Part shown: positions 3,225-16,722 of the stretch, piece after piece
Position numbering within the stretch: position 1 is the stretch's first letter
How the letters are laid out: the number at the start of each line of letters is the position of its first letter
The notes under the pieces: generated by a model
The model's input: only the letters and a program-made list of their open reading frames with translations
What the model was told of the DNA's origin: nothing
Databases searched by the model: none
Assembly (NCBI GenBank): GCA_022826045.1
Contig: JAJDVQ010000102.1
Span: 1-64,000 of the forward strand
Direction of reading: 5' to 3'
DNA: 64,000 nt
From: Acidimicrobiia bacterium
GTDB lineage: Bacteria; Actinomycetota; Acidimicrobiia; Acidimicrobiales; Poriferisodalaceae
Program-made: the position numbers and the translations under genes

Positions 3225-3380
3225 GCGCACGGCCTCGCAGCAGCGCGGGCTGGTGCGGCACTGTGAGCGACCCGTCGGCCGAGCGGCAACCCCGCGGCAA
3301 TGCCAGAGCGTGAATGGTCGCGGCGTCGAGGCCCGGTTGCGATGGCGCGCAGCGGCTGGCTGATTTGCGATGCTGGCGCG

Positions 3381-4808
3381 ATGCAAACGCAGATGCTCAT
3401 TGGAGGCGATTGGCGAGGTGCCGCAGGCGGCGAGCTGATCGACGTGCTCGACCCGGCGACCGGCGACGTTGCCGCTGGCGTCGCAGCGGGAACGCCAGCC
3501 GATGCCGTGGCGGCGTGCGACGCGGCTGCCGCAGCGCAGCCCGGCTGGGCAGCCACCGCGCCCCGCGTCCGCTCAGAGATTCTGCGGGATGCCCATCGCA
3601 TCCTGATCGAGCACTCCGACGAGCTGGCCGATCTCATCACGCTGGAGAACGGCAAGCCCCGCGCCGACGCCATCGGCGAGGTGGCCTACGCCGCTGAGTT
3701 CTTCCGCTGGAACGCCGAGGAAGCCGTGCGCATCCACGGCTCGATCAGCGTCGCGCCCTCGGGCGCCAACCGCATCATCACCCGCCACCCGCCCGTCGGC
3801 GTCGTGGCCATGATCACGCCGTGGAACTTCCCGGCTGCCATGATCACCCGCAAGCTCGCCCCGGCACTGGCCGCCGGCAACACGGTGGTCGTCAAGCCGC
3901 CTCGGGAAGCCCCGCTGACCTCGCTGCGGGTCGCCGAGCTGCTGGCCGAAGCAGGCGTGCCGGCCGGCGTCGTCAATCTGGTGCCAACGGCCAACTCGGG
4001 CGCCTGGCTCGACGCCGTCGTGGATCACCGGGCGGTGCGGATGCTGTCGTTCACCGGCTCCACCGAAGTCGGCCGGGTGCTGCTGAAGCGCTGCGCCGAC
4101 CGGGTGCTCAAGGTGGTGATGGAGCTCGGCGGCAACGCGCCGTTCGTCGTGTTCGCCGACGCCGACCTCGAAGCCGCCACTGCCGGCGCCATGGTCGCCA
4201 AGATGCGCCACTCGGCCGAGACCTGCACTGCCGCCAATCGATTCTTCGTGGAGGCGCCGGTTCACGACGAGTTCGTCGAGCGGCTGGCGACGGCAATGGG
4301 AGCGATGAAGGTCGGCAACGGCAGGGACCCCGATGTCACGTGCGGCCCGATGATCAACGCCGCCTCGGTTTTCAATATCGACCGGCTGGTGCGCTCGGCG
4401 GTCGACGGGGGCGCCACCGCTGTCACCGGCGGCAGCGCCATCGACGGCCCGGGCTTCTTCTACGAGCCGACGGTGCTCGGTGGCGTGGCGCCCGGCGCGC
4501 CCATCACCCGCGAGGAGATCTTCGGCCCCGTCGCACCGATCTCCAGCTTCACCGACACCGACGCCATGATCGCCGCTGCCAACGACACCGAGATGGGCCT
4601 CATTGGCTACGTCTACACCCAGGACCTCGCCAAGGGCCTCGCAGTCAGCGAGCGCATCGAGGCCGGCATGATCGGCCTCAACCGTGGCGCCGTGTCTGAC
4701 CCCGCCGCGCCCTTCGGCGGCATGAAGCAGTCGGGCCTCGGCCGCGAAGGCGCCAGCGAGGGCATCTACGAATTCTGCGAGACCCAGTACATCGCCGCGG
4801 AGTGGTAG
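3381..4808 (+). CDS. NAD(P)-dependent aldehyde dehydrogenase, succinate-semialdehyde dehydrogenase type
   Basis: The 475-residue enzyme is a typical aldehyde dehydrogenase oxidising an aldehyde to the acid. The Rossmann part includes the TPWNFPAAM segment. Catalytic E248 lies in MELGGN and catalytic C282 in SAETCTAANR. The C-terminal part carries EEIFGPVAP and the PFGGMKQSGLGREG signature of the succinate-semialdehyde/GabD branch, but the exact substrate is uncertain. The ATG at 3381 is chosen because it begins just before the conserved N-terminus (LIGGDWRGA); the frame stays open upstream without conserved sequence. Bases 3225-3380 upstream hold no recognisable gene. Confidence 0.85.
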   Translation: MQTQMLIGGDWRGAAGGELIDVLDPATGDVAAGVAAGTPADAVAACDAAAAAQPGWAATAPRVRSEILRDAHRILIEHSDELADLITLENGKPRADAIGEVAYAAEFFRWNAEEAVRIHGSISVAPSGANRIITRHPPVGVVAMITPWNFPAAMITRKLAPALAAGNTVVVKPPREAPLTSLRVAELLAEAGVPAGVVNLVPTANSGAWLDAVVDHRAVRMLSFTGSTEVGRVLLKRCADRVLKVVMELGGNAPFVVFADADLEAATAGAMVAKMRHSAETCTAANRFFVEAPVHDEFVERLATAMGAMKVGNGRDPDVTCGPMINAASVFNIDRLVRSAVDGGATAVTGGSAIDGPGFFYEPTVLGGVAPGAPITREEIFGPVAPISSFTDTDAMIAAANDTEMGLIGYVYTQDLAKGLAVSERIEAGMIGLNRGAVSDPAAPFGGMKQSGLGREGASEGIYEFCETQYIAAEW

Positions 4809-4873: not shown

Positions 4874-6610
4874 GTGCTGCTAGCTGCTTCGGCACCGCCG
4901 CTGCTGACCGAACTGGCGATCTTGCTGGTTGCGGGAACGCTGATCGCCTTCGTGTCGTCGCGTTTCGGAGTAGTGCCGATCGTCGGCTTCCTCGTCGCAG
5001 GTGCCGTCATCGGCCCCAGCGGGGTCGGCCTCATCAGCGACATCGACCTGGTCAACCAGTCGGCCGACATCGGGGTGATGCTGCTGCTGTTCACCCTCGG
5101 AATCGAGTTCAGCCTCGAACGGATGCGCCAGCTCGCCTCGCTGGTCGTGATCGGGGGCGCCAGCCAGGTCGCGCTGACGATGGGCATCGTCGCCGCGATC
5201 GTGGTGGCATTCGGCGTCGAATGGCAGACGGCGGTGTTCACCGGCCTGCTCGTGTCACTCAGCAGCACCGCGATCGTGCTCAAAGTGCTTGTGGGCCGGC
5301 GGGCGACGACATCGCAGACCGGCAACGTCTCGATTGCCCTCCTCATCTTCCAGGATCTGGCGATCGTCGCCATGGTGCTAGCGGTGCCGTTGCTCGGCGG
5401 TCAGACCTCTGGTCCCGTCGACATCCTGTTCGCGCTGGGCAAGGCAGCGGGCATCGTTGTGGCAGTGATCGTCGTGGCGCGGACGCTGATGCCCGCGCTG
5501 CTCCGGCATGTCTCGCGTTTCCAGTCCGCAGAAGTGTTCTTGCTGGCCATTTTGGCCATCTGCTTCGGCACCGCGTATGTGACGAGCCTGCTCGACGTGT
5601 CGATCTCGCTCGGTGCGTTCCTCGCCGGGCTGATGGTGAGCGAGAGCCGCGTCGCCGCTCGGGCGCTCGGCGAAGTGATGCCGCTGCAGATCCTGTTCTC
5701 GGCGACGTTCTTCGTGTCGATCGGCATGCTGCTCGACGTCGGCTACCTTGCTCGCAACCTGCCGCTGGTGGTGGGCCTCGCCGCCAGCGTCGTCGTCATC
5801 AAGCTGTTCGCGACTGCATCGGCTGCGCTGCTGCTGCGACAGCCTCGGGCAGTGGCCATCTCGGGGGCGGTGGTGCTCGCACAGGTCGGCGAGTTCTCCT
5901 TCGTTCTCGAACGGGCGGGCGAAGAGGTCGGGCTGGTTCCCGCGGGCCTCGCCAACGGCACCGATGCCTTCATCGCAGTCACCGTCCTGTTGATGGCGTT
6001 CAGCCCGTTCGGCGTGCGCTGGGGCGACTCGCTCGCTGCGCGGCTCGAGGCGGGCGCCGACGACCGACATCGCATCGATGCCGACGACATGCCGGATCCC
6101 GCGGACGACGAGCCGCTGGCCGATCACGCGGTCGTGAACGGCTTCGGTCCCCGGGCGCGCCGCATCGTCAGCGCTCTCGAGCTGGCACGCATTCCGTACA
6201 CCATCGTGTCGCTCGATCCCGACGCGCAGCGCTGGGCGGCTTCGACGGGCAGACGGGTGCTCATCGGCGATGTCTCGCGGCACCTGATAGCTGACCGGGC
6301 GGGTCTGCGCGATGCACGGATCGTGCTCTCGGTGGACAGCCCGCCCTCAGCCGTGGAGCAGTTCGCCCGTATCGCCCGCGAGCACAACCCCGATGTGGTC
6401 GTGCTCGCCTGGGCGGCTGACCCCGCCGACGCCGCTGATCTCGAACGCGAGGGACTGGTCGATCACGTCGTCGCCGAGCGGCAAGCAGCCCACGACGCGC
6501 TTATCGCCCATGCACTCGGCCACTTCGAGCTGCCTGAGCCGGAGACTGAAGCAGTCACCCACGCGGTGCTGCACTCCGAGCTCACGCCGCCGGACGAGGA
6601 CGACGACTAG
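4874..6610 (+). CDS. CPA2-family cation:proton antiporter with TrkA-N domain (KefB type)
   Basis: This 578-residue membrane protein exchanges K+ or Na+ for H+. About 11-13 hydrophobic segments span residues 5-390, with the GAVIGPSGVGL and LLLFTLGIEFSLE motifs of the Na+/H+ exchanger domain (PF00999). A soluble Rossmann TrkA-N domain starts near residue 417. Its nucleotide motif reads GFGPRAR rather than a full GxGxxG, so ligand gating may be altered. No TrkA-C domain follows. The GTG at 4874 is used. TAGTCT at 4859-4864 is a weak -10 candidate, 9 nt upstream. Confidence 0.85.
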   Translation: MLLAASAPPLLTELAILLVAGTLIAFVSSRFGVVPIVGFLVAGAVIGPSGVGLISDIDLVNQSADIGVMLLLFTLGIEFSLERMRQLASLVVIGGASQVALTMGIVAAIVVAFGVEWQTAVFTGLLVSLSSTAIVLKVLVGRRATTSQTGNVSIALLIFQDLAIVAMVLAVPLLGGQTSGPVDILFALGKAAGIVVAVIVVARTLMPALLRHVSRFQSAEVFLLAILAICFGTAYVTSLLDVSISLGAFLAGLMVSESRVAARALGEVMPLQILFSATFFVSIGMLLDVGYLARNLPLVVGLAASVVVIKLFATASAALLLRQPRAVAISGAVVLAQVGEFSFVLERAGEEVGLVPAGLANGTDAFIAVTVLLMAFSPFGVRWGDSLAARLEAGADDRHRIDADDMPDPADDEPLADHAVVNGFGPRARRIVSALELARIPYTIVSLDPDAQRWAASTGRRVLIGDVSRHLIADRAGLRDARIVLSVDSPPSAVEQFARIAREHNPDVVVLAWAADPADAADLEREGLVDHVVAERQAAHDALIAHALGHFELPEPETEAVTHAVLHSELTPPDEDDD

Positions 6611-6632: not shown

Positions 6633-8909
6633 GTGAGCACAGACGCCGCAGCCCGACACGGCATCGCACCGGTCCGCTGCCTCGACGGCGTGAGGGTCGT
6701 GGAGCTGACGACCGGCATCGCTGGGCCGTATGCGGCGCGCTTCCTGGCCGACCAGGGCGCCGATGTGGTGAAGGTGGAGCCGCCCGGCGGCGACCCGTAC
6801 CGCGCCGACCCGGGCTTCCAGGCCGTGAGCCGCAACAAGCGCTCGGTGGTATCCGAGGGCGTCGAATGGGAACGGGCCCCGCTCCCGGCCGATGTCGACG
6901 GACCGCCGGCGTCTCTGCCCGGCATCCTGCGGCCGGCGTCGTCGTCGATGGCCGCGCCGCTGCTGGGTGGACTGCTCGCCGGCGCCGATGTCGTGTTCGT
7001 GTCCGACGGTCCGACCGCCGCGGCCGTTCGAAGACATGCTCCGAGCGCGGTGATCATCTCGTGCCCGACCTGGGGCGACCGGGGACCGTACGCAACACGT
7101 GTGGGCACCCCGTCGCAGGTGGCCGCCGTGACCGGCATCGGCTGGAACCAGATCAGCTACTCCGAAGGCCCCGTCGAGCTGGTGGTGCCGCTGGCCTCCT
7201 ACGGGGCCGGAATGCTCGGGGCGATGGCAGCCGCAGCGGGTCTGTACGCCCGGCGGGCCCACGGGTCGGCGCCGACCTGCACCGTCTCGGAGGTGTCCGG
7301 CTCGGGCGCCATGCAGATCGGCGACTTCGAGGTGCCCGAGATGGCCGACCTCGACCGCGACGGCTCCTGCCCGCTCGGCTCGGCCGGCAGACTGCCCGTG
7401 TACCGGCTGTTCCGGGCCGCCGACGACCGCTGGATGTTCGTGGCCTGCGGCACGTATCCCTTTTACGAGGCGATGCTGCGAGCCATCGGCCGCGAAGACC
7501 TGCTGGGCGACGAGCGGTTCCCGGACCCGCCGTGGGGCCTGCTCGATCTCGAGCCGCTGGCGGAGATTACGCCGATCCTCGAAGACGCCTTCGCGGCCCG
7601 CCCGCTCGACGAGTGGCTGGAGATCTTCGGCGCTCACGATGTGCCCTGCCAGCCGACCCAAACCCGCGAGGAATTCATGGCATCGGCGCTTGCGCAGGCC
7701 AACGGGCTCGCCACCACCGTCGAGCACCCCGAACTCGGCACGGTGCGCACGTCGCCGCAGCCGATGTGGATCGACGGCTGCGACCAGGTAGCGCTGCAGC
7801 CGGCCCCGCTTCTCGGCGAGCACACCGCCGAGGTCGCAGCCGAGCTGGCCGACGGCTCGTGGGCCGCAGCGACCGGCGGCGACGGCCGAGCGGCAGCCGC
7901 GGGCGAGCCCGCGAACCCGACAGCGCCCGCCGAGGCGCCGCTGGCGGGCGTGCGTGCCGTCGACCTCAGCTCGTTCATCGCCGGACCGGTCATCACCCGC
8001 CACCTGGCCATGCTGGGCGCCGAGGTCATCAAGATCGAACAGCCCGGCGGCGACCCGTTCCGCGTGCTCGGGCCGTATTTCAATGGCTGGAACCAATCGA
8101 AGCGCTCGATCTGCCTCAATCTCAAGGACGCTGCCGACCACGCGGTCATGGCACAGCTCGTGGCCGGTGCCGACGTCATCGTGGAGAACTTCCGCCCCGG
8201 TGTGGCGGCGCGCCTCGGCGTGGCCGACGACGACCTGCGGCGCATCCGCCCCGATGCGGTGCTGGTGAAGAGCCCCGGTTACGGCCGCGACTCGTCCATG
8301 GCGGACGTGCCGGCCTTCGATCCGCTGCTGCAGGCTCTGGGCGGGATCATGTCGGCGCAGGGCGGCGACGCTGAGCCGGTGTTCCTGACGGTGCCGGTGC
8401 ACGACGCCGCCACGCCGATGATCGCCGCGTTCGGCGTGCTGTGCTCGCTCTACCGGCGCTTGGTCGACGGCGAGGGGCGGACGGTGCGCACATCGCTCAC
8501 CCAGACCGTCACCGCAGCACAGGCAGCCGAGTTCGTGCAGTACGAAGGGCGGCCGCCTGCCGAGATGGGCGGCATGGACTACCGGGGCGCAGGCCCCGAG
8601 CGCACGTATCTCGAAGTTCCCGATGCCGACGGCCCCCAGTGGATCTGGCACCAGACGACGCCGGAGGGCACAAGCGACCTGCCGGTCGAGCGGCGCGGCT
8701 TCGTGAGGGCGACCGTCGCCGTTGACAACCGTCACGTCGTTGACCTGCCGGAGACCGAGTGGGGTCCGATGATCCAGCTCGGCGCCCTTGTCGGCGGCAT
8801 CGACGTGCCGATGCGCCGAGCTCCCTACCTCGACGAGCACCGAACAGAGATCACCGCCGAACTCGCCACGGCTGGGAGCACCGGCACGCAGCCGGCGGCG
8901 GCCGACTGA
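6633..8909 (+). CDS. tandem-domain family III CoA-transferase (CaiB/BaiF type)
   Basis: The 758-residue protein contains two complete CaiB/BaiF modules in one chain, at about residues 15-420 and 435-745, joined by an Ala/Gly-rich linker. Such enzymes move CoA between carboxylates. Each half shows the N-terminal signature (GADVVKVEPPGGDP; GAEVIKIEQPGGDP). The second half has the expected catalytic aspartate, D591 in VPVHDAATPM. The aligned place in the first half is S189 in VPLASYGAGM, so only one half is likely to be catalytic. Single-module enzymes are about 400 residues; natural tandem fusions exist in actinobacteria. The molybdenum hydroxylase gene follows within 51 nt, hinting at a shared catabolic role; substrate unknown. 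Confidence 0.85.
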   Translation: MSTDAAARHGIAPVRCLDGVRVVELTTGIAGPYAARFLADQGADVVKVEPPGGDPYRADPGFQAVSRNKRSVVSEGVEWERAPLPADVDGPPASLPGILRPASSSMAAPLLGGLLAGADVVFVSDGPTAAAVRRHAPSAVIISCPTWGDRGPYATRVGTPSQVAAVTGIGWNQISYSEGPVELVVPLASYGAGMLGAMAAAAGLYARRAHGSAPTCTVSEVSGSGAMQIGDFEVPEMADLDRDGSCPLGSAGRLPVYRLFRAADDRWMFVACGTYPFYEAMLRAIGREDLLGDERFPDPPWGLLDLEPLAEITPILEDAFAARPLDEWLEIFGAHDVPCQPTQTREEFMASALAQANGLATTVEHPELGTVRTSPQPMWIDGCDQVALQPAPLLGEHTAEVAAELADGSWAAATGGDGRAAAAGEPANPTAPAEAPLAGVRAVDLSSFIAGPVITRHLAMLGAEVIKIEQPGGDPFRVLGPYFNGWNQSKRSICLNLKDAADHAVMAQLVAGADVIVENFRPGVAARLGVADDDLRRIRPDAVLVKSPGYGRDSSMADVPAFDPLLQALGGIMSAQGGDAEPVFLTVPVHDAATPMIAAFGVLCSLYRRLVDGEGRTVRTSLTQTVTAAQAAEFVQYEGRPPAEMGGMDYRGAGPERTYLEVPDADGPQWIWHQTTPEGTSDLPVERRGFVRATVAVDNRHVVDLPETEWGPMIQLGALVGGIDVPMRRAPYLDEHRTEITAELATAGSTGTQPAAAD

Positions 8910-8959: not shown

Positions 8960-11308
8960 ATGGCGACGGCGCGACTTGCCTCTGAGGATCTGCCGATGCT
9001 GCACGGCGCGGCGGCCTTCACCGCCGATCTGCCGCTGCCCGACGGCTGCTTGCACGCAGCGTTCGTGCGCTCGACGGTGGCCCACGGCGACCTGCGCAGC
9101 GTCGATCTGCGCGAGGCCGAGCAGGCGCCTGGCGTTGTCGCGGTCTTCGAGGCGGCGGGGCTGGGCTTGGAGCCGCTGGAGTACTACCGGGCCACCACGC
9201 TCGGCGGCACGATGGCCCGGCCGCTGCTGGCCACCGAGCGGGTCCGGTTCGTCGGCGAGCCGATAGCGGTCGTGCTGGCGGACTCGCCCGTGCACGCCCT
9301 CGACGCCGCTGAGCTGGTTGCCGTCGAGATAGACGAGCTGCCGGCAGTCATCGACGCCGAGCAGGCCGCAGCCGACGACATGCTGCTGTTCCCCGGCGCG
9401 GCAACGAACGTGGTGCGGCCGCTGGATCCGCCCGACAGCGGCGGCTTCCTGTCACCGCCCACCGAGCTCGACGAGGCTGCTGCGCCCCCGGCCGCCCTCG
9501 GTGAGGACCCCTGTGCAGGCGCACAGTGCGTGGTGGAGCTGGTCTGCGAGAACGACAGGATCACGTCGCTGCCGATCGAGCCGTGCGCCATCGTCGCAAC
9601 ACCGTTCGAGCTGATCCGGGACACACCGCTCGCAGCCGGGGCATCGCCCGACTGCGAGATCGACATCTGGAGCACTGGCCAGGGCGTGCACAGCGCGCCG
9701 TACCTGTACCGGCGCCTGCTGGGCATCCCGGTTACGGCGGTGCGCGTCCGCGAACCCCACGTCGGCGGCGGGTTCGGCGGCCGCGGCGACCCGATGCCGG
9801 AGTTCTTCGTGGCGGCCCGGGCCGCCCAGCTGCTCGAACGTCCGGTGCGCTGGGTGCAGAGCCGCCAGGAGCAGTTCGTGTCCATGCCCTACGGGCGCGG
9901 CCAGCGGCACCGCATCCGGATGGGCTTCGAAGGCGACGGCCGCATCGTCGGGATCGACGCGGTCATGTGGTGCGACGCGGGCGCCTACCCGCACATGGCG
10001 CCGATGCTGACGGCGGCCAGCTACCGCCAGAGCACCGGCCTGTACCGGGTGCCGCGGCTGCGCTACCGCATCGGCTCCGCCGTCACGAATGCCCCGCCCA
10101 CTGGTGCCTACCGCGGCGCCGGCCAGCCCGAGGTGAACGCCGCGCTCGAACGGGCCATCGACGCCGGCGCCCGCAAGCTCGGCCTCGATCCCGCCGATGT
10201 CCGCCGCCGGAACCTGCTGCGGGCCGACGAGCTGCCGTTCGACACGGGCACCGGCATCGTGCTCGACAGCGGCGACCCGCACCGTGCACTCGACACAGCC
10301 CAGGAGCTCATCGACGTCGAGCGCTGGCAGGCGCTGGCAGCCGAGCGCCGGGCCGCCGGCAGCAGATCGGCGCTGATCGGGATCGGCTACGGCTGCTACA
10401 GCCAGAGCGCGGGCAGCGGCGACGACCCCGACTACGCCTCGCTGGAGCTGGGCTCGGACGGGAGCGTGCTGGTGACCTGCGGCAGCCACGGCCACGGCCA
10501 GGGGCATCACAGCTTGTGGGCCCAGATCACGAGCGCCCGGGTCGGGATCGCCGAGGGCGCCGTGCGGGTGAACGACGCCGACTCAGTGACATCGTCCTAC
10601 GGCGGGGTGACCGGCGGTTCGCGCACCGCGACGGTGCTGGGCAGCCAGATCGCCGAAGCAGCGACCGAGCTGCGTGCCCGCATCTGCGAGGTGGCAGGCG
10701 GGCTGCTCGAAGCCAGCCCCGACGACATCAGCCTCACCCCCGACGGCGCGCACGTCGCCGGTGTGCCGTCGCGGCTGACCAGTTGGGCCGACATTGCTGC
10801 GGCAGCGCCGGAGGGAATCAGCGCAACCGTCACCGAACGCCGCGCCGAGGTGACCCATCCCTACGGCACCCATGCCGCGGTCGTGGAGGTCGATGCGGAG
10901 ACCGGACGTGTCGAGCTGCTGGCGTTCGCCGCCGTGGACGACTGCGGGCGGATGCTGTCGGAGGCTTCGGTTGAGGGACAGCAGCACGGCGGCGCGGTGG
11001 CCGGCATCTCCCAAGCGCTGATGGAGGCAGGGCAGTGGGACGCCGACGGCACGCCTCGCACCACCACGCTCGTCGACTACCTGATCCCGGCCGCCGCCGA
11101 TCTGCCGCCCATCGACACCGCGCGGCTCGGCACGCCCACCGAGCGCAACGAGCTCGGCACCCGCGGCATCGGCGAGAACGGGGCCATCGCCGCCCCGCCC
11201 GCCGTGCAGAACGCCGTCATCGACGCCGTCGCCCACCTCGGCGTCACCCACATCGACATCCCCCTCACCCCCCAACGAGTCTGGGAAGCCATCCGAACCG
11301 CTCAATAG
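8960..11308 (+). CDS. xanthine dehydrogenase/CoxL-family molybdopterin-binding large subunit
   Basis: This 782-residue subunit of a molybdenum hydroxylase has the a/b-hammerhead domain at the N-terminus (about 15-125), then the molybdopterin-binding halves. Visible cofactor motifs are GGGFGG at residues 269-274, GAYRGAGQPE and GGVTGGSRTA. The catalytic glutamate is probably E739 in GIGENGA. Members hydroxylate aldehydes, purines or acyl-CoA compounds, or oxidise CO; the CoxL CO-dehydrogenase loop was not recognised. ATG 8960 has GGTGAG just upstream; a GTG at 8912 is an alternative. The FAD (CoxM) and [2Fe-2S] (CoxS) partners are not adjacent, which is unusual, so partners must come from elsewhere. 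Confidence 0.8.
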   Translation: MATARLASEDLPMLHGAAAFTADLPLPDGCLHAAFVRSTVAHGDLRSVDLREAEQAPGVVAVFEAAGLGLEPLEYYRATTLGGTMARPLLATERVRFVGEPIAVVLADSPVHALDAAELVAVEIDELPAVIDAEQAAADDMLLFPGAATNVVRPLDPPDSGGFLSPPTELDEAAAPPAALGEDPCAGAQCVVELVCENDRITSLPIEPCAIVATPFELIRDTPLAAGASPDCEIDIWSTGQGVHSAPYLYRRLLGIPVTAVRVREPHVGGGFGGRGDPMPEFFVAARAAQLLERPVRWVQSRQEQFVSMPYGRGQRHRIRMGFEGDGRIVGIDAVMWCDAGAYPHMAPMLTAASYRQSTGLYRVPRLRYRIGSAVTNAPPTGAYRGAGQPEVNAALERAIDAGARKLGLDPADVRRRNLLRADELPFDTGTGIVLDSGDPHRALDTAQELIDVERWQALAAERRAAGSRSALIGIGYGCYSQSAGSGDDPDYASLELGSDGSVLVTCGSHGHGQGHHSLWAQITSARVGIAEGAVRVNDADSVTSSYGGVTGGSRTATVLGSQIAEAATELRARICEVAGGLLEASPDDISLTPDGAHVAGVPSRLTSWADIAAAAPEGISATVTERRAEVTHPYGTHAAVVEVDAETGRVELLAFAAVDDCGRMLSEASVEGQQHGGAVAGISQALMEAGQWDADGTPRTTTLVDYLIPAAADLPPIDTARLGTPTERNELGTRGIGENGAIAAPPAVQNAVIDAVAHLGVTHIDIPLTPQRVWEAIRTAQ

Positions 11309-11351: not shown

Positions 11352-12647
11352 ATGGTCGAGCCGGACTTCCTGCACTTCGACACGCTGGCGCTGCACGCCG
11401 GCCAGCGGCCCGACCCGACCACCGGGGCGCGGGCCGTGCCGATCTACCAGACCACGTCGTTCAGCTTCACCGACACCGAGCAGGCGGCCAGCCTGTTCAA
11501 CCTCGAGATTCCCGGCCACATCTACAGCCGCATCTCCAATCCCACCGTTGCCGTGCTTGAGGAGCGGATCGCCGCGCTCGAGGGCGGCGTCGGCGCGGTC
11601 TGCACAGCGAGCGGCATGGCGGCGTTCCACCTGGCGTGCGCCACGATCGCCTCAGCGGGCGACCACATCGTGGCCAGCCGCAACATCTACGGCGGCACCC
11701 ACAACATTCTGAGCCTGACGCTGCCCCGCTTCGGCATCACCACCACGTTCGTCGACCCACGCGATCTCGATGCGTGGCGCAGCGCCATCCAGCCCAACAC
11801 CAAGGTGCTGTTCGCCGAGACGCTGGGCAATCCCAACATCGAGGTGCTCGACGTCCCGGCCGTCGCCGCGGTCGCCCACGAGGCCGGCCTGCCGCTGATG
11901 CTCGATGCCACGTTCACCACGCCGCACCTGATGCGGCCCATCGAGCTGGGCGCCGACATCGTGATGCACAGTGCCACCAAGTTCCTCGGCGGTCACGGCG
12001 TGGCGATCGGCGGCGTCGTGGTGGACGGCGGGCGTTTCGACTGGGCCGCCTCGGGCAAGTTCCCGACGCTCAGCGAGCCGTACGCGGGCTACCACGGCAT
12101 TGCCTTCACTGACGAGTACGGGCCGCAAGCGCTGTCGATGCGGGCCCGAGCCGAGGGCCTGCGCGACTTCGGCGCCGCCATGAGCCCAGCGGTGGCGTTC
12201 CACCTGTTGCAGGGTGTCGAGACACTGCCGCTGCGCATGGACCGCCATGTCGCCAACACCGAAGCCGTGATCGAGTTCCTCACCTCGCACGATGCGGTGA
12301 GCTGGGTAAGCCACCCGTCGGCGCCGTCGCACCCCGATCACGAGCTGGCCAAGCGGCTGCTGCCGCGGGGCGCCGGCGCGATCCTGAGCTTCGGCGTCGA
12401 AGGCGGCCGCGAGGCCGGACGGCGGTTCATCGAGGCAGTGCGGCTGGCCTCGCACCTCGCCAACGTGGGCGACGCCAAGACGCTCGTGATCCACCCCGCC
12501 AGCACCACCCACCAGCAGATGAGCGCCGAGGACCTTGTCGCCGCCGGCGTCGGCGAGGATCTGGTGCGGCTGTCGGTGGGCCTCGAGCACCCCGGCGACA
12601 TCATCTCTGACCTGTCCCGCGCCCTGCGGGCATCGCAGAAGGGCTGA
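11352..12647 (+). CDS. metY: O-acetylhomoserine aminocarboxypropyltransferase (sulfhydrylase)
   Basis: This 431-residue PLP enzyme makes homocysteine from O-acetylhomoserine and sulfide in methionine synthesis. It belongs to the Cys/Met-metabolism fold-type I family: the start LHAGQRPDP, the YSRISNPT substrate-loop motif and the Schiff-base lysine K210 in HSATKFLGGHG are all present. Length fits MetY (about 430) better than MetB or MetC (about 380-400). CGGAGG at 11341-11346 sits 5 nt before the ATG at 11352 and decides that start over an upstream GTG at 11316. It is transcribed convergently with the ADP-ribosylation operon; 12648-12716 shows no clear terminator. Confidence 0.9.
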   Translation: MVEPDFLHFDTLALHAGQRPDPTTGARAVPIYQTTSFSFTDTEQAASLFNLEIPGHIYSRISNPTVAVLEERIAALEGGVGAVCTASGMAAFHLACATIASAGDHIVASRNIYGGTHNILSLTLPRFGITTTFVDPRDLDAWRSAIQPNTKVLFAETLGNPNIEVLDVPAVAAVAHEAGLPLMLDATFTTPHLMRPIELGADIVMHSATKFLGGHGVAIGGVVVDGGRFDWAASGKFPTLSEPYAGYHGIAFTDEYGPQALSMRARAEGLRDFGAAMSPAVAFHLLQGVETLPLRMDRHVANTEAVIEFLTSHDAVSWVSHPSAPSHPDHELAKRLLPRGAGAILSFGVEGGREAGRRFIEAVRLASHLANVGDAKTLVIHPASTTHQQMSAEDLVAAGVGEDLVRLSVGLEHPGDIISDLSRALRASQKG

Positions 12648-12716: not shown

Positions 12717-14624
12717 TTAGCGTCGGAGGTCGTCGTAGAGATTCGTAGCCACGTAGGCCAGGTCGGCTTGGTTGCCGACTCGCGCCACTTGGCGGAGCAT
12801 GTCTACCAAGGCTCGGTCGTCGTTGACCTTTCGCCGCGCGTGCTCCGCGTACTTCTTCAGTTGTTCAGGCGTCATGCGCGTCGAATCCTGTTCTGCCGGG
12901 GGCAGCCGTCGACCGGCTCGGTCCCCCCGAATGTCGTCGGTGTGATGAGACAACGCAGACTGGGCGTTAGCGGAGCGCTCAGTCGCTGCTGTGCCGTCAG
13001 TCGAGCCAAGCGACGACGGTCCATCGTCGCTTCCGGACAGTTCGCGTTGAACTCGCTGAGGCTTGTTCGGCCGTTCAGACTTAAAGGCTTGCTTGTCTGC
13101 TTCGCTTGAAGCCCCGTCGAGATTGAGCCGCGCCTGATCTTCTCCGGCGCCATCTGGTCTGTCGGCTGTTCTCCCGCGATCTGGGATGCGGTTGTAGACC
13201 GCTTGCTCCGGCGGAGTCGGGCGCGACTTGATGAGCAGTGTTTGGTTGAAGCACGTCTTGACCCAACGCCACGCAAAGTCGCGCTTCGGCGACCAGTGGA
13301 TGTCATCGTCAAGGGCGCTGACAGAGCCGAGGCCGTCAACTGCGAGTCCGCTCTGGTCGCGTACAAGTGCATCAGCCTGTGTAGACGGCGCTGCCCATCG
13401 GAGGAGGTCGGGGTAGGTATGGCCAGGCCGCCATTCACCTGTCGCGAGCGCGTGGAGCCGGTCGGCCTCGGCAGTCAAGAGGGCGGCATCGAGCGGCAGC
13501 TCTGGCGGATCCTCGGTACTGTCGCATGCTCCGAGCAATGCGCCCGCCATAGATGCGATGGTGTCGGTGTCGGTACCAAGTGCGTTGGCGGCAACGGTGC
13601 ACCCGCCGTACGCATCTTCGGCGATCGCGGCGAGAGCAGCCGCCGCCACGGTGGTGAGGACCCCGCTGCCCACGTGATGCTTCTCCCGAAGACCGAGAAC
13701 GCGACACGTCGCCTCGTACGCGTCGTCAGGTGTGTCCGCTTGCTCCATTGCAGAGCGTGCCATGCGGACCGCCTCCACCAGCTCGCAGACGGTCGAATCC
13801 CAGCTGTCGCGGAGCGATTGCGCAGTGGCACTTTCCCATAGACTGATCCAGAACGAACCGAGCAGATCATGTTCTTCGATCGTCCTCGACGAGCCTTCGA
13901 GCTTCTCGGCGAAGTCTTGGGCAGTGTCGAGATCCGGTGGCTCGCCGGCGATAAGGCTGTGAGCCAGCAAGTCAGCGGAAAAGCATGCGCCTACGAGCGC
14001 TCGGGGGTGTCCATGCGTACAAACACTGTCCTCGATGACCGGCACCAAGTAGTCGCGCTCGCTGAGCCGAGCGGATGCCCATACGTGCGGCTGGATGCGC
14101 ATGGCGGCACCGTTGCCGCCGGCTTCAGTCCATCCTTCGAAGGTGTTGGCATACCAAGGCACGCGGGGGTTGGCGAGGTTCTTGGATGCCGCCTTGGATG
14201 CTCGTCCGCCACCGAGCGCGTATGACGGCCACACGGGCAATTCGACGTTGGCAAACATTTCCGTGTCGAATCCGTAGCCGCTGAGCGATCGTCCTACGGC
14301 GAGACGCAGCTGTGTATCGTCCGACCAGCATCCGGCCGGGAGTTCAACTTCGACACCGCTTCTGCCGCCGACGCGTCGCATCCACGGGATGAGCCGATCC
14401 AGGTTTTTGCCACGAGTTCGGCGTCGCAGCAGGCGCTCGTCGGCCATCTCGCTGATGAAGCCCAGTGCATCGCCGTAGGCCGCCCATAGCACTGATCTGC
14501 GAGTGCGACGTGCGCGCAGATCGTCGGTGGCGTCGAGTCTCTTGCTCGGACCTTGGGCTTCAGTCAGGACCGCGGAGGCTTCATCGCCGAGTGGCAACGA
14601 CGGTGCGGGTTCAGTAGAACTCAT
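12717..14624 (-). CDS. ADP-ribosylglycohydrolase (DraG/ARH family), putative antitoxin
   Basis: This 635-residue protein has an ARH/DraG hydrolase domain at about residues 40-400 that should remove ADP-ribose from a modified target. Family motifs are GDALG (51-55), the metal-binding WSDDTQ (100-105), GGNGAAMR (169-176) and GTDTDTIASMAG (350-361). Residues 470-580 are low-complexity and polar; the last 50 (MTPEQLKKYAEHARRK onward) look like a folded helical element not found in ordinary ARH enzymes. ATG 14624 overlaps the DarT-like stop as ATGA, with GGAG 7 nt upstream; an earlier start at 14645 is less likely. As third gene of the operon it is the natural antidote to the ADP-ribosyltransferase. 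Confidence 0.85.
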   Translation of the reverse strand: MSSTEPAPSLPLGDEASAVLTEAQGPSKRLDATDDLRARRTRRSVLWAAYGDALGFISEMADERLLRRRTRGKNLDRLIPWMRRVGGRSGVEVELPAGCWSDDTQLRLAVGRSLSGYGFDTEMFANVELPVWPSYALGGGRASKAASKNLANPRVPWYANTFEGWTEAGGNGAAMRIQPHVWASARLSERDYLVPVIEDSVCTHGHPRALVGACFSADLLAHSLIAGEPPDLDTAQDFAEKLEGSSRTIEEHDLLGSFWISLWESATAQSLRDSWDSTVCELVEAVRMARSAMEQADTPDDAYEATCRVLGLREKHHVGSGVLTTVAAAALAAIAEDAYGGCTVAANALGTDTDTIASMAGALLGACDSTEDPPELPLDAALLTAEADRLHALATGEWRPGHTYPDLLRWAAPSTQADALVRDQSGLAVDGLGSVSALDDDIHWSPKRDFAWRWVKTCFNQTLLIKSRPTPPEQAVYNRIPDRGRTADRPDGAGEDQARLNLDGASSEADKQAFKSERPNKPQRVQRELSGSDDGPSSLGSTDGTAATERSANAQSALSHHTDDIRGDRAGRRLPPAEQDSTRMTPEQLKKYAEHARRKVNDDRALVDMLRQVARVGNQADLAYVATNLYDDLRR

Positions 14625-15316
14625 CGGAAGGCTCCAGGATCGCACCTGATGTTAGGGCTCAACGAGCTGAGGCTGAGAGCCGCATGAACGCGGTCACCGA
14701 GATCATCGCTGGGAACGACGACGGTGTGGAGATTGTCGACGCCAAGCGAATGTGGGTAGAGCACTTCGGCCTGTGGATCGGTCGTCTCGAAGGCCGTCCG
14801 GTCCCGGCGCGTGTGTGTGCTGTCGTAGTACCCCCACGGAACCGAAGCAGCGAACATCTGATTGAAGCCGTCGATGCCTGAGGCTCGATGGGTTGTGGGA
14901 TATGCGTTGTTTGAAGTGGTGAACACCACGCCCGGGTCGCCCAAGATTTCCGGTCCGAAGCAGAGGATTACCCATTCGGAGCTCGGATGCCACGTCTGCG
15001 AGGCGATCTCGAACAGGCTCATGTTGATGGCAGTCACAGAGAGATTGACATAGTCGTGCCATGGCGTATCGCGGCTGCGGTCCTCGACATTGGCCTGGTA
15101 CACGAACTCGACCAATTCCTCATCCGCGAGGTAGCTGCGACCCTTCACGTCACCGGTCCCCAAGATGCCGACGAGTCCCGAGTAGCGCGTGAAGTGCACG
15201 ACATCGGTGATGCCTCGATCCAGAGCCGCCGCGACGACAGCGGGGCAGCGCGGCTCCATCCGCACCTCCAAGGGCGACTGCGGAAGTGCCTCGGGCGCCC
15301 ATTCGTCGCCGCTCAC
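14621..15316 (-). CDS. DarT-like ssDNA ADP-ribosyltransferase (DUF4433), putative toxin
   Basis: The 231-residue protein resembles DarT, which uses NAD+ to ADP-ribosylate thymidine or guanosine in single-stranded DNA. Seen in sequence: VVHFTRYSGLVGIL at 39-52, matching the NAD+-binding start of DarT; DYVNLSVTAINMSL at 88-101, matching the DarT strand that normally reads VPFYF plus a short helix; and QAEVLYP at 182-188, the loop carrying the probable catalytic glutamate E184. An arginine expected for NAD+ binding could be R78, R80 or R82. Its ATG overlaps the helicase stop (ATGA), so translation is coupled. Known DarT toxins pair with a macrodomain antitoxin (DarG); here the following gene is an ARH hydrolase instead. 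Family assignment is from memory. Confidence 0.75.
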   Translation of the reverse strand: MSGDEWAPEALPQSPLEVRMEPRCPAVVAAALDRGITDVVHFTRYSGLVGILGTGDVKGRSYLADEELVEFVYQANVEDRSRDTPWHDYVNLSVTAINMSLFEIASQTWHPSSEWVILCFGPEILGDPGVVFTTSNNAYPTTHRASGIDGFNQMFAASVPWGYYDSTHTRRDRTAFETTDPQAEVLYPHSLGVDNLHTVVVPSDDLGDRVHAALSLSSLSPNIRCDPGAFR

Positions 15317-16722
15317 AGATCCACCCGTTCGTAGGTGTTGGGGTCGAGCAGATTGACCAGGGTCGATTCTTCGCCCGGCTTGTAGCCGAGCATGACCGTC
15401 TTGCGGGCTCGGCCGATGGCCATAGCCAGCATCCGCTGCAATTGCTGAAGGTCGCTGTCACCTTCCTCCGGACCGTGGGGTGTCACTCGCTGGCTGAGGC
15501 CCGGCATCAAGACGTGGTCGAATTCGAGACCTTTGGCCGAATGCATGGTGCAGAGTCCGACGTTCTCATCGCCGCGAGGCCACTCTGACTGCCTCGTCAA
15601 CTCGCAGTAGGGAATGCCGCGCGACCGCAACGCCCGCCGCATTTCGTCGAACCATCCTCCGCCGCGCGCTTTGAGCACGGCCGCCGTCTCTGTACGGAGA
15701 TCCGCCTCGGCTTCTAGCCGGTCGAGCATGTACGCGATCTGTCTGCTGTACTTGCCAACTGTCACCAAGGGTGGCGTGCCTTCGACGGCGCATGCGCTGA
15801 AATCGGGCATCGCACCATCATCCTCTGGCGGCAAGCCCGCCAGTAGCGGCTGCGCGAAGCGCGCAATGGCGGCAGTGTTTCGGTAGTTGCGCGTGAGCTT
15901 GTGGACTATCCCACGATGGGCCTTGATGCCGACTTCTTGCCATGCGAAGAAGCGTGGATATAGGCGCTGCATCGCATCGAGGACGAAGGTGGTGCTGTGG
16001 TCTTGGCTCAAGTGATGCAAGACAGCCCGCATTTGATTGGCCGAGAAATCCTGTGTCTCGTCGACTATCACGATGTCGTAGCGCTGTTTCGGGGGCGAGG
16101 CAGATGCGAGGAGGGCGAGATCGTTCCAATCGACGAGACCGCGGTTTCTCTTTTCCTCCGTGTAGGCAACTATTGGGCCTTCAAGCAGCGCCCGCTGACG
16201 AACCTTGCTGATTCTCGGTGCCGTACCGCGTCCGACCCGTTTCGCTTGCAAGTAATGGTCCAGGCTGTCAGGTGGATACCTGCCGAGTACGTACTCGATC
16301 TCGTCGATGAGAAATGCTTGTTGGCCCCGGACGCCGATGTCGGCGAGGTGTGGCAGCAGCATGGCAGCGGTTTGGTCGCGGCCGAGCACAGACGTCACAC
16401 CTGCGAGGTTCCGTGACCAACTTCCGAATGTGAAGATGTCCAGCACAAGGGAGTCGTCGCCGGTGTCGGCCTTTCGAGCGAGTTCTTCGACGTAGCCCCT
16501 GAGAGTGCGATTGAACGTCAGCACCAGTGCGCGAACGGGCTCGCTGGCACCCTCGCGCTGACGTCGTCGGAGACGCGCAGCGACTTGCAACCTGAGCTGG
16601 AGTAGCGCTGTCGATGTCTTACCGCTGCCCGCCGCACCCCGGATGATCCTGAAGCCGGCACGGTTGTCGGCAACGATCTGCCGCTGCTCTGGGGTCGGCT
16701 CGAAGTCCTGTAAGACGCGCAC
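15313..16722 (-). CDS. compact UvrD/Rep-like superfamily 1 helicase
   Basis: This 469-residue protein is a 3'-5' SF1A helicase by motif: Walker A GAAGSGKT at 29-36, motif II VDETQDF at 220-226, LTRNYRNT at 276-283, MHSAKGLEFDHV and the arginine-finger region AIGRARKTVML near the C-terminus. UvrD and Rep are about 670-720 residues, so inserted 1B/2B subdomains appear reduced. It starts at GTG 16722 and is first in a three-gene operon with the DarT-like transferase and ARH hydrolase. It could load on or expose single-stranded DNA, the substrate of DarT enzymes, during phage replication. A -10-like TATGTT lies on the minus strand at 16774-16779. Confidence 0.85.
   Translation of the reverse strand: MRVLQDFEPTPEQRQIVADNRAGFRIIRGAAGSGKTSTALLQLRLQVAARLRRRQREGASEPVRALVLTFNRTLRGYVEELARKADTGDDSLVLDIFTFGSWSRNLAGVTSVLGRDQTAAMLLPHLADIGVRGQQAFLIDEIEYVLGRYPPDSLDHYLQAKRVGRGTAPRISKVRQRALLEGPIVAYTEEKRNRGLVDWNDLALLASASPPKQRYDIVIVDETQDFSANQMRAVLHHLSQDHSTTFVLDAMQRLYPRFFAWQEVGIKAHRGIVHKLTRNYRNTAAIARFAQPLLAGLPPEDDGAMPDFSACAVEGTPPLVTVGKYSRQIAYMLDRLEAEADLRTETAAVLKARGGGWFDEMRRALRSRGIPYCELTRQSEWPRGDENVGLCTMHSAKGLEFDHVLMPGLSQRVTPHGPEEGDSDLQQLQRMLAMAIGRARKTVMLGYKPGEESTLVNLLDPNTYERVDL

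Follow-up and report, generated by a model that had tools for sequence, protein, structure and literature searches.

The question raised by this locus is what a CoA-transferase built of two CaiB-type modules in one chain does with a module that lacks the catalytic Asp. The gene lies in a window of 64,000 nucleotides, i.e., the whole stretch of DNA that was analysed (contig JAJDVQ010000102.1 of assembly GCA_022826045.1, an Acidimicrobiia bacterium of the Poriferisodalaceae). From the sequence of the window, the initial annotation had proposed a double CoA-transferase in which the second module keeps the catalytic Asp (D591), the first has Ser189 at the aligned place and the fusion may be a pseudo-dimer with one regulatory or structural half.

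Gene, reading frame and family

A longer in-frame reading is possible from position 6312. The start at 6633 was retained because the matches of close relatives begin at residues 1-12 of this reading in 8 of the 9 loci compared (the other one, L073, is truncated at a contig end). Pfam recognizes CoA_transf_3 alone in the 758-aa protein (E 2.9e-124, three stretches), and the PF02515 profile gives 415 bits for a cut-off of 23.3, i.e., the protein belongs to this family. Formyl-CoA transferase, succinate-glutarate CoA-transferase and related NCBIfam models all score far under their curated cut-offs, thus a specific enzyme name is not justified. Among PDB sequences, transferases match best (SUGCT 9.3e-37, Frc 1e-33), ahead of racemases (4e-19). 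The single open reading frame, the three stretches of CoA_transf_3 and the one-chain model agree with the two fused CaiB modules first proposed. The 758-aa protein is classed here as a fused, half-dead member of the class III CoA-transferases and, within this type, as a reduced variant.

Domain layout

The AlphaFold2 model of the whole chain has a pLDDT of 89.8 and a pTM of 0.93. It displays the fold of the solved class III members, i.e., a large Rossmann domain plus a small domain, the small domain of half 2 being reduced: helices occupy 275-356 in half 1, and strands 652-684 plus one short helix are found in half 2. VIA-align of the full-length model covered half 1 only, thus half 2 was modelled separately. 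The shortened half by itself folds confidently (pLDDT 88.0) and matches solved enzymes from end to end, e.g., YfdW with CoA (1q6y; 314/417 residues, Z 30.9, rmsd 3.6). Half 1 matches Rv3272 (5yit_B; 343/353 residues, Z 22.3, rmsd 2.5). Its blocks at 81-100 are poorly ordered in the AlphaFold2 model (pLDDT 58 and 56).

A loss of 40 residues from the CoA region of half 1 was considered and rejected. The gap in the HMM came from the local alignment, and the full alignment has instead a longer, poorly ordered stretch in the genus of the window and a later segment shorter by 8 residues.

Table 1. Coordinates, in the window, of the transferase gene, its parts and its neighbours
Feature	Coordinates	Strand	Details
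Aldehyde dehydrogenase, upstream	3375..4808	+	
KefB/C-like cation antiporter	4874-6610	+	
Fused double class III CoA-transferase gene	6633..8909	+	758 aa, GTG start, no internal stop; Pfam, AlphaFold2 model
Half 1 large (Rossmann) domain, N-terminal part	6672..7337	+	residues 14-235, without catalytic Asp
Ser189 codon, catalytic place of half 1	7197..7199	+	alignments
Half 1 small domain	7395..7712	+	residues 255-360, complete; model, alignment
Half 1 large domain, C-terminal part	7713..7859	+	residues 361-409; model
Inter-half linker	7860..7928	+	residues 410-432, variable
Half 2 large domain, N-terminal part	7929..8552	+	residues 433-640, most conserved part
ENFRPG signature, half 2	8184..8201	+	residues 518-523; missing in half 1
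Asp591 codon, catalytic place of half 2	8403..8405	+	alignments
Half 2 small-domain remnant	8553..8747	+	residues 641-705, mainly beta strands, helical part lost
Half 2 large domain, C-terminal part	8748..8882	+	residues 706-750
Molybdenum hydroxylase large subunit, next gene downstream	8960..11308	+	PF01315, PF02738, PF20256
O-acetylhomoserine sulfhydrylase-type PLP enzyme, downstream	11352..12647	+	
Three-gene island	12717-16722	-	
642-aa protein with ADP-ribosylglycohydrolase domain	12717-14645	-	PF03747 1.4e-32
DarT-type ADP-ribosyltransferase	14621-15316	-	PF14487 6.2e-23
UvrD-like helicase	15313-16722	-	

Catalytic positions of the two halves

Both residues named in the initial annotation are found where it placed them. 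In whole-protein alignments, D591 is opposite the catalytic Asp of SUGCT and of Brucella formyl-CoA transferase. Ser189 is opposite the catalytic Asp of the partner in five phmmer pairwise alignments, which represent three proteins: human SUGCT (9br6/9br7), Rv3272 (5yit/5yiy) and a Brucella CaiB protein (4ed9). In 5yiy it faces Ala, this entry being the D175A mutant of Rv3272. In the AlphaFold2 model, Ser189 and Asp591 occupy the same third position of matching long helices (187-210 and 589-612, respectively). Half 2 thus has its catalytic Asp at the start of a long helix, half 1 has Ser189 there, and, by secondary structure and sequence alignment, no acidic residue of half 1 takes the catalytic place in this helix start, which leaves the initial annotation unrefuted on this point. 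In a MAFFT alignment of 66 fused proteins, D591 is invariant (66/66), and column 189 contains Ser 40, Glu 7, Ala 5, Trp 4 and others, with Asp in 0/66.

Ser189 was also considered as a substitute nucleophile. This was rejected, since in the reduced subfamily described below the position can be S, Q, A, E or G, and wider sets have S, E, A, W, F, Q, Y, M and further residues there. Glu is found there in 8 of 76 fused relatives and in one reduced member (G726); judged from the sequence, such proteins may have a weak first site.

Dead and live halves among fused members

A survey of the two positions leads to a uniform result: the Asp is present in half 2 of 76/76 and in half 1 of 0/76 unique fused proteins, in a non-random sample that was gathered as relatives of the 758-aa protein, from the same class, and whose close orthologs make the counts not independent. 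At the half 1 position are found Ser (35), a gap (12), Glu (8), Ala (7), Trp (4), Met, Phe, Tyr and Gln (2 each), Thr (1) and Asn (1).

The genome that carries the window (3.64 Mb, 91% complete) gives 52 PF02515 matches, which for its size is a very large repertoire of CoA-transferases. All 13 fused genes read there have the Asp in half 2 and none has it in half 1. Two adjacent unfused gene pairs of this genome consist each of one gene with the Asp and one without. In these pairs (L014 and L029, on C44 and C91) the live gene is first and the dead one second, i.e., the reverse of the fused order. Among the single-module ORFs of the whole survey, the Asp is present in 42/50; of the eight that lack it, seven adjoin a live-module gene and one is on a short contig. 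Two reduced members (L198 in G726, L199 in G959) adjoin additional CaiB-type matches, and in G726 several of these stand in a row.

The rule also extends to plasmids. Five matches of a plasmid search were opened: one (H11) corresponds to two ordinary adjacent genes, and the other four are fusions that obey the rule (Sphingomonas sp. MM-1, two Rhodococcus sp. and R. rhodochrous). On a tree of 168 modules, only 3 changes between dead and live are needed, vs. a mean of 52.6 for shuffled labels; the dead halves are therefore a few old lineages.

These comparisons, together with the trimming described below, lead to the conclusions that: (i) the dead first half is correctly recognized, and it is ordinary for fused members and no peculiarity of the 758-aa protein; (ii) the peculiarity of this protein is the loss of the small domain of its live half. 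The initial annotation mentions neither this loss nor the missing ENFRPG signature of half 1. Fused or paired half-dead class III transferases are abundant in this genome and in its relatives, and the consistent rule (dead half 1, live half 2) indicates to annotators which half to mutate or assay.

Reciprocal trimming of the two halves

The small-domain core of half 2 (residues 668-700 of the window's protein) has 27-33 residues in 13/13 rows of the subfamily, vs. 71-118 residues (median 87) in the 53 other rows of the 66-protein alignment. A second alignment of 41 rows, which includes 22 further proteins, gives 28-33 residues in 23 rows vs. 52-91 in 17. One apparently reduced protein, G764 (L178), was left out of the 23 because its contig ends inside the gene. 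Of the 23 reduced members, nine belong to the genus of the window, eight to further genera of the same family and four to family f28, and two more families contribute one each.

Half 1 is trimmed at a different place. Its segment 119-140, which occupies the place of the ENFRPG-type signature of live modules, has 22 residues in 23/23 reduced members, vs. 30 residues in 13 of the 17 unreduced proteins (19, 24, 27 and 36 in the others). The small domain of half 1 is full (106 residues) in 23/23 reduced members. What is retained (large domain 2 with small domain 1) would make up one site, and what is lost would belong to the other; this fit is the main reason to infer a single composite site.

An order-wide search with the subfamily profile gave matches of E 1e-80 or better in 36 of 397 genomes, a count that pools reduced and unreduced members. 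The subfamily profile has matches in 2 of 396 genomes of a phylum sample. Searches of the open-licence PubMed Central literature gave no paper that describes the loss of a small domain in fused class III transferases.

Conservation and selection

The mean entropy in the subfamily increases from large domain 2 (0.60) to small domain 1 (0.68), large domain 1 (0.76) and the small-domain-2 remnant (1.06). In eight ortholog pairs, the large domain of half 1 has a dN/dS of 0.10-0.16 and the large domain of half 2 one of 0.09-0.16. The former is thus not decaying and is under strong purifying selection.

In the unreduced fused proteins (n=60), the expectation was a higher conservation of small domain 1 than of small domain 2. 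Only close pairs (80-97%) agreed with it, with identities of 0.867 and 0.744, respectively. For distant pairs, i.e., those with 25-35% identity in large domain 2, the order is reversed (mean identity 0.153 for small domain 1 and 0.254 for small domain 2). This reversal may come from substrate divergence or from alignment error, and the comparison gives no clean support to the composite-site model.

Proposed mechanism and alternatives

Sequence and model together make it probable that the 758-aa protein is an active class III CoA-transferase, in which one chain forms a pseudo-heterodimer around a single composite site and the large domain of half 1 is a scaffold. Asp591 and the CoA-binding residues would come from the large domain of half 2; the pocket would be closed by small domain 1, as it is by the small domain of the partner in ordinary dimers. 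Such borrowing of a small domain from the partner is described for a class III active site in passages of PMC9196870. Attack of Asp591 on the donor acyl-CoA would first yield an aspartyl anhydride and next an aspartyl-CoA thioester, which would be resolved by the acceptor acid; anhydride and aspartyl-CoA intermediates are described in passages of PMC9813914. The large domain of half 1, with Ser189, would remain as a scaffold within the interlocked fold. The second would-be site has decayed on both sides, i.e., by loss of the Asp and of the CoA-signature segment in half 1 and by loss of the small domain in half 2.

Sequence, survey, tree and model thus uphold the pseudo-dimer with one dead site that had been proposed. 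Of the two roles suggested for the dead half, the structural one is favoured because of the purifying selection on the large domain of half 1 and the full small domain of the same half; no evidence in support of the regulatory one was found. A regulatory half 1, whose old site would still bind a CoA species or an acid and thereby tune the live site, would be in line with a large domain as constrained as that of half 2 and with Lys69-Arg70 of the NKR motif of half 1, invariant in 8 aligned subfamily rows. However, every reduced member has a shortened CoA-signature segment in half 1 and the ENFRPG-like motif is missing in the aligned rows, residue 189 varies in the reduced subfamily, and the small domain of half 2, which would close the half 1 site, is mostly lost, so that this role is improbable. 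A CoA-dependent lyase, isomerase or racemase, instead of a plain transferase, is rather unlikely. DddD and the MCR-type racemases have the same fold, and passages on DddD describe the same two-CaiB-domain architecture (PMC7174347) and a function as both transferase and lyase (PMC8163506), but the best PDB matches are transferases over racemases. By sequence, a lyase step on top of the transfer may occur.

That the missing small domain of half 2 merely reflects an assembly error or a pseudogene is highly improbable. The named same-genus sequences do all come from metagenome-assembled genomes; against this reading, the same shortening recurs in 23 sequences, which represent several genera of the family of the window and three additional families, purifying selection acts along the gene and the shortened half folds confidently. 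The active pseudo-heterodimer with one composite site is thus the reading retained here. As for its origin, a natural one-and-a-half transferase is somewhat favoured: the Asp would have been lost first, then the small domain of half 2 and the CoA segment of half 1 would have been removed, leaving exactly one composite site. If true, this would be evolutionary evidence that a site of this interlocked fold pairs the large domain of one half with the other half's small domain, and that a single site is enough. For the composite-site model, the trimmed subfamily is a compact test provided by nature, and it gives a scaffold where a mutation should touch one site only.

Comparison with known systems

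BbsEF (succinyl-CoA:(R)-benzylsuccinate CoA-transferase; 9fn0, 9fol, 9fun) also has two class III subunits, one of them without the catalytic Asp, and a D178-CoA adduct is named in the PDB title of 9fol. The dead/live pairing is the same here (S189/D591). On the contrary, the BbsEF subunits are separate chains of 409-410 residues, whereas the 758-aa protein is fused in a single ORF and its live half is without the helical small domain. For the dead gene of the unfused C91 pair, the best match in the PDB is 9fn0_A (2.4e-38), and a Tyr of 9fn0_A is opposite the dead position (phmmer).

DddD, the DMSP CoA-transferase/lyase, has a single catalytic Asp, D602, in its second domain. It has two CaiB domains per chain, as here, placed at 1-416 and 439-821 for Endozoicomonas in passages of PMC7174347. 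Both domains of DddD, known here by its published description, are about full length (383-416 residues), whereas half 2 has about 328 residues, with a small-domain core of 33.

Frc/YfdW and human SUGCT share with half 2 the fold, the catalytic Asp and the CoA signature. They are dimers of one chain type with two equal sites per dimer, whereas one chain with one complete predicted site is found here. Mesaconyl-CoA C1:C4 transferase (7xkg, 8apq) shares the fold and, from passages of PMC9196870 and PMC9813914, a composite pocket; it differs in being a homodimer with an intramolecular transfer. An expansion of CaiB-type proteins, with DddD as top match for some, is mentioned for SAR202 bacteria in a part of PMC5395668.

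Gene neighbourhood

The near relatives are metagenome-assembled genomes named Acidimicrobiales, Acidimicrobiia, Microthrixaceae or Acidimicrobiaceae bacterium, presumably from marine sponges. The neighbouring genes were identified with Pfam and NCBIfam. Among the nine same-genus loci, eight have the molybdenum hydroxylase large subunit after the transferase gene (the contig of the other locus ends before it); in 4/4 loci of family f28 it is located 0.7-2.4 kb downstream. No match to it was found in the fetched stretch of 8 loci from other genera of the window's own family, and the sulfhydrylase gene is nearby in 8/8 loci from such genera. The link between transferase and hydroxylase is suggestive only. 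In the genome of the window, PF20256 (molybdenum hydroxylase) has 15 matches, some being pieces of one gene, and PF00941 (FAD subunit domain) has 8, with 7 over the cut-off. Several molybdenum hydroxylase large subunits, including the one after the transferase gene, seem to be without an adjacent FAD partner.

The KefB/C-like antiporter gene, between the aldehyde dehydrogenase and transferase genes, is also near the transferase gene in L068, L070 and L072; L067, L069, L071, L074 and L075 gave no match. The three-gene island with the DarT-type gene was found in L075 only, among the 8 other same-genus loci covering the place. DarT and its ADP-ribosylglycohydrolase-type neighbour could be a variant of a toxin-antitoxin or defence system.
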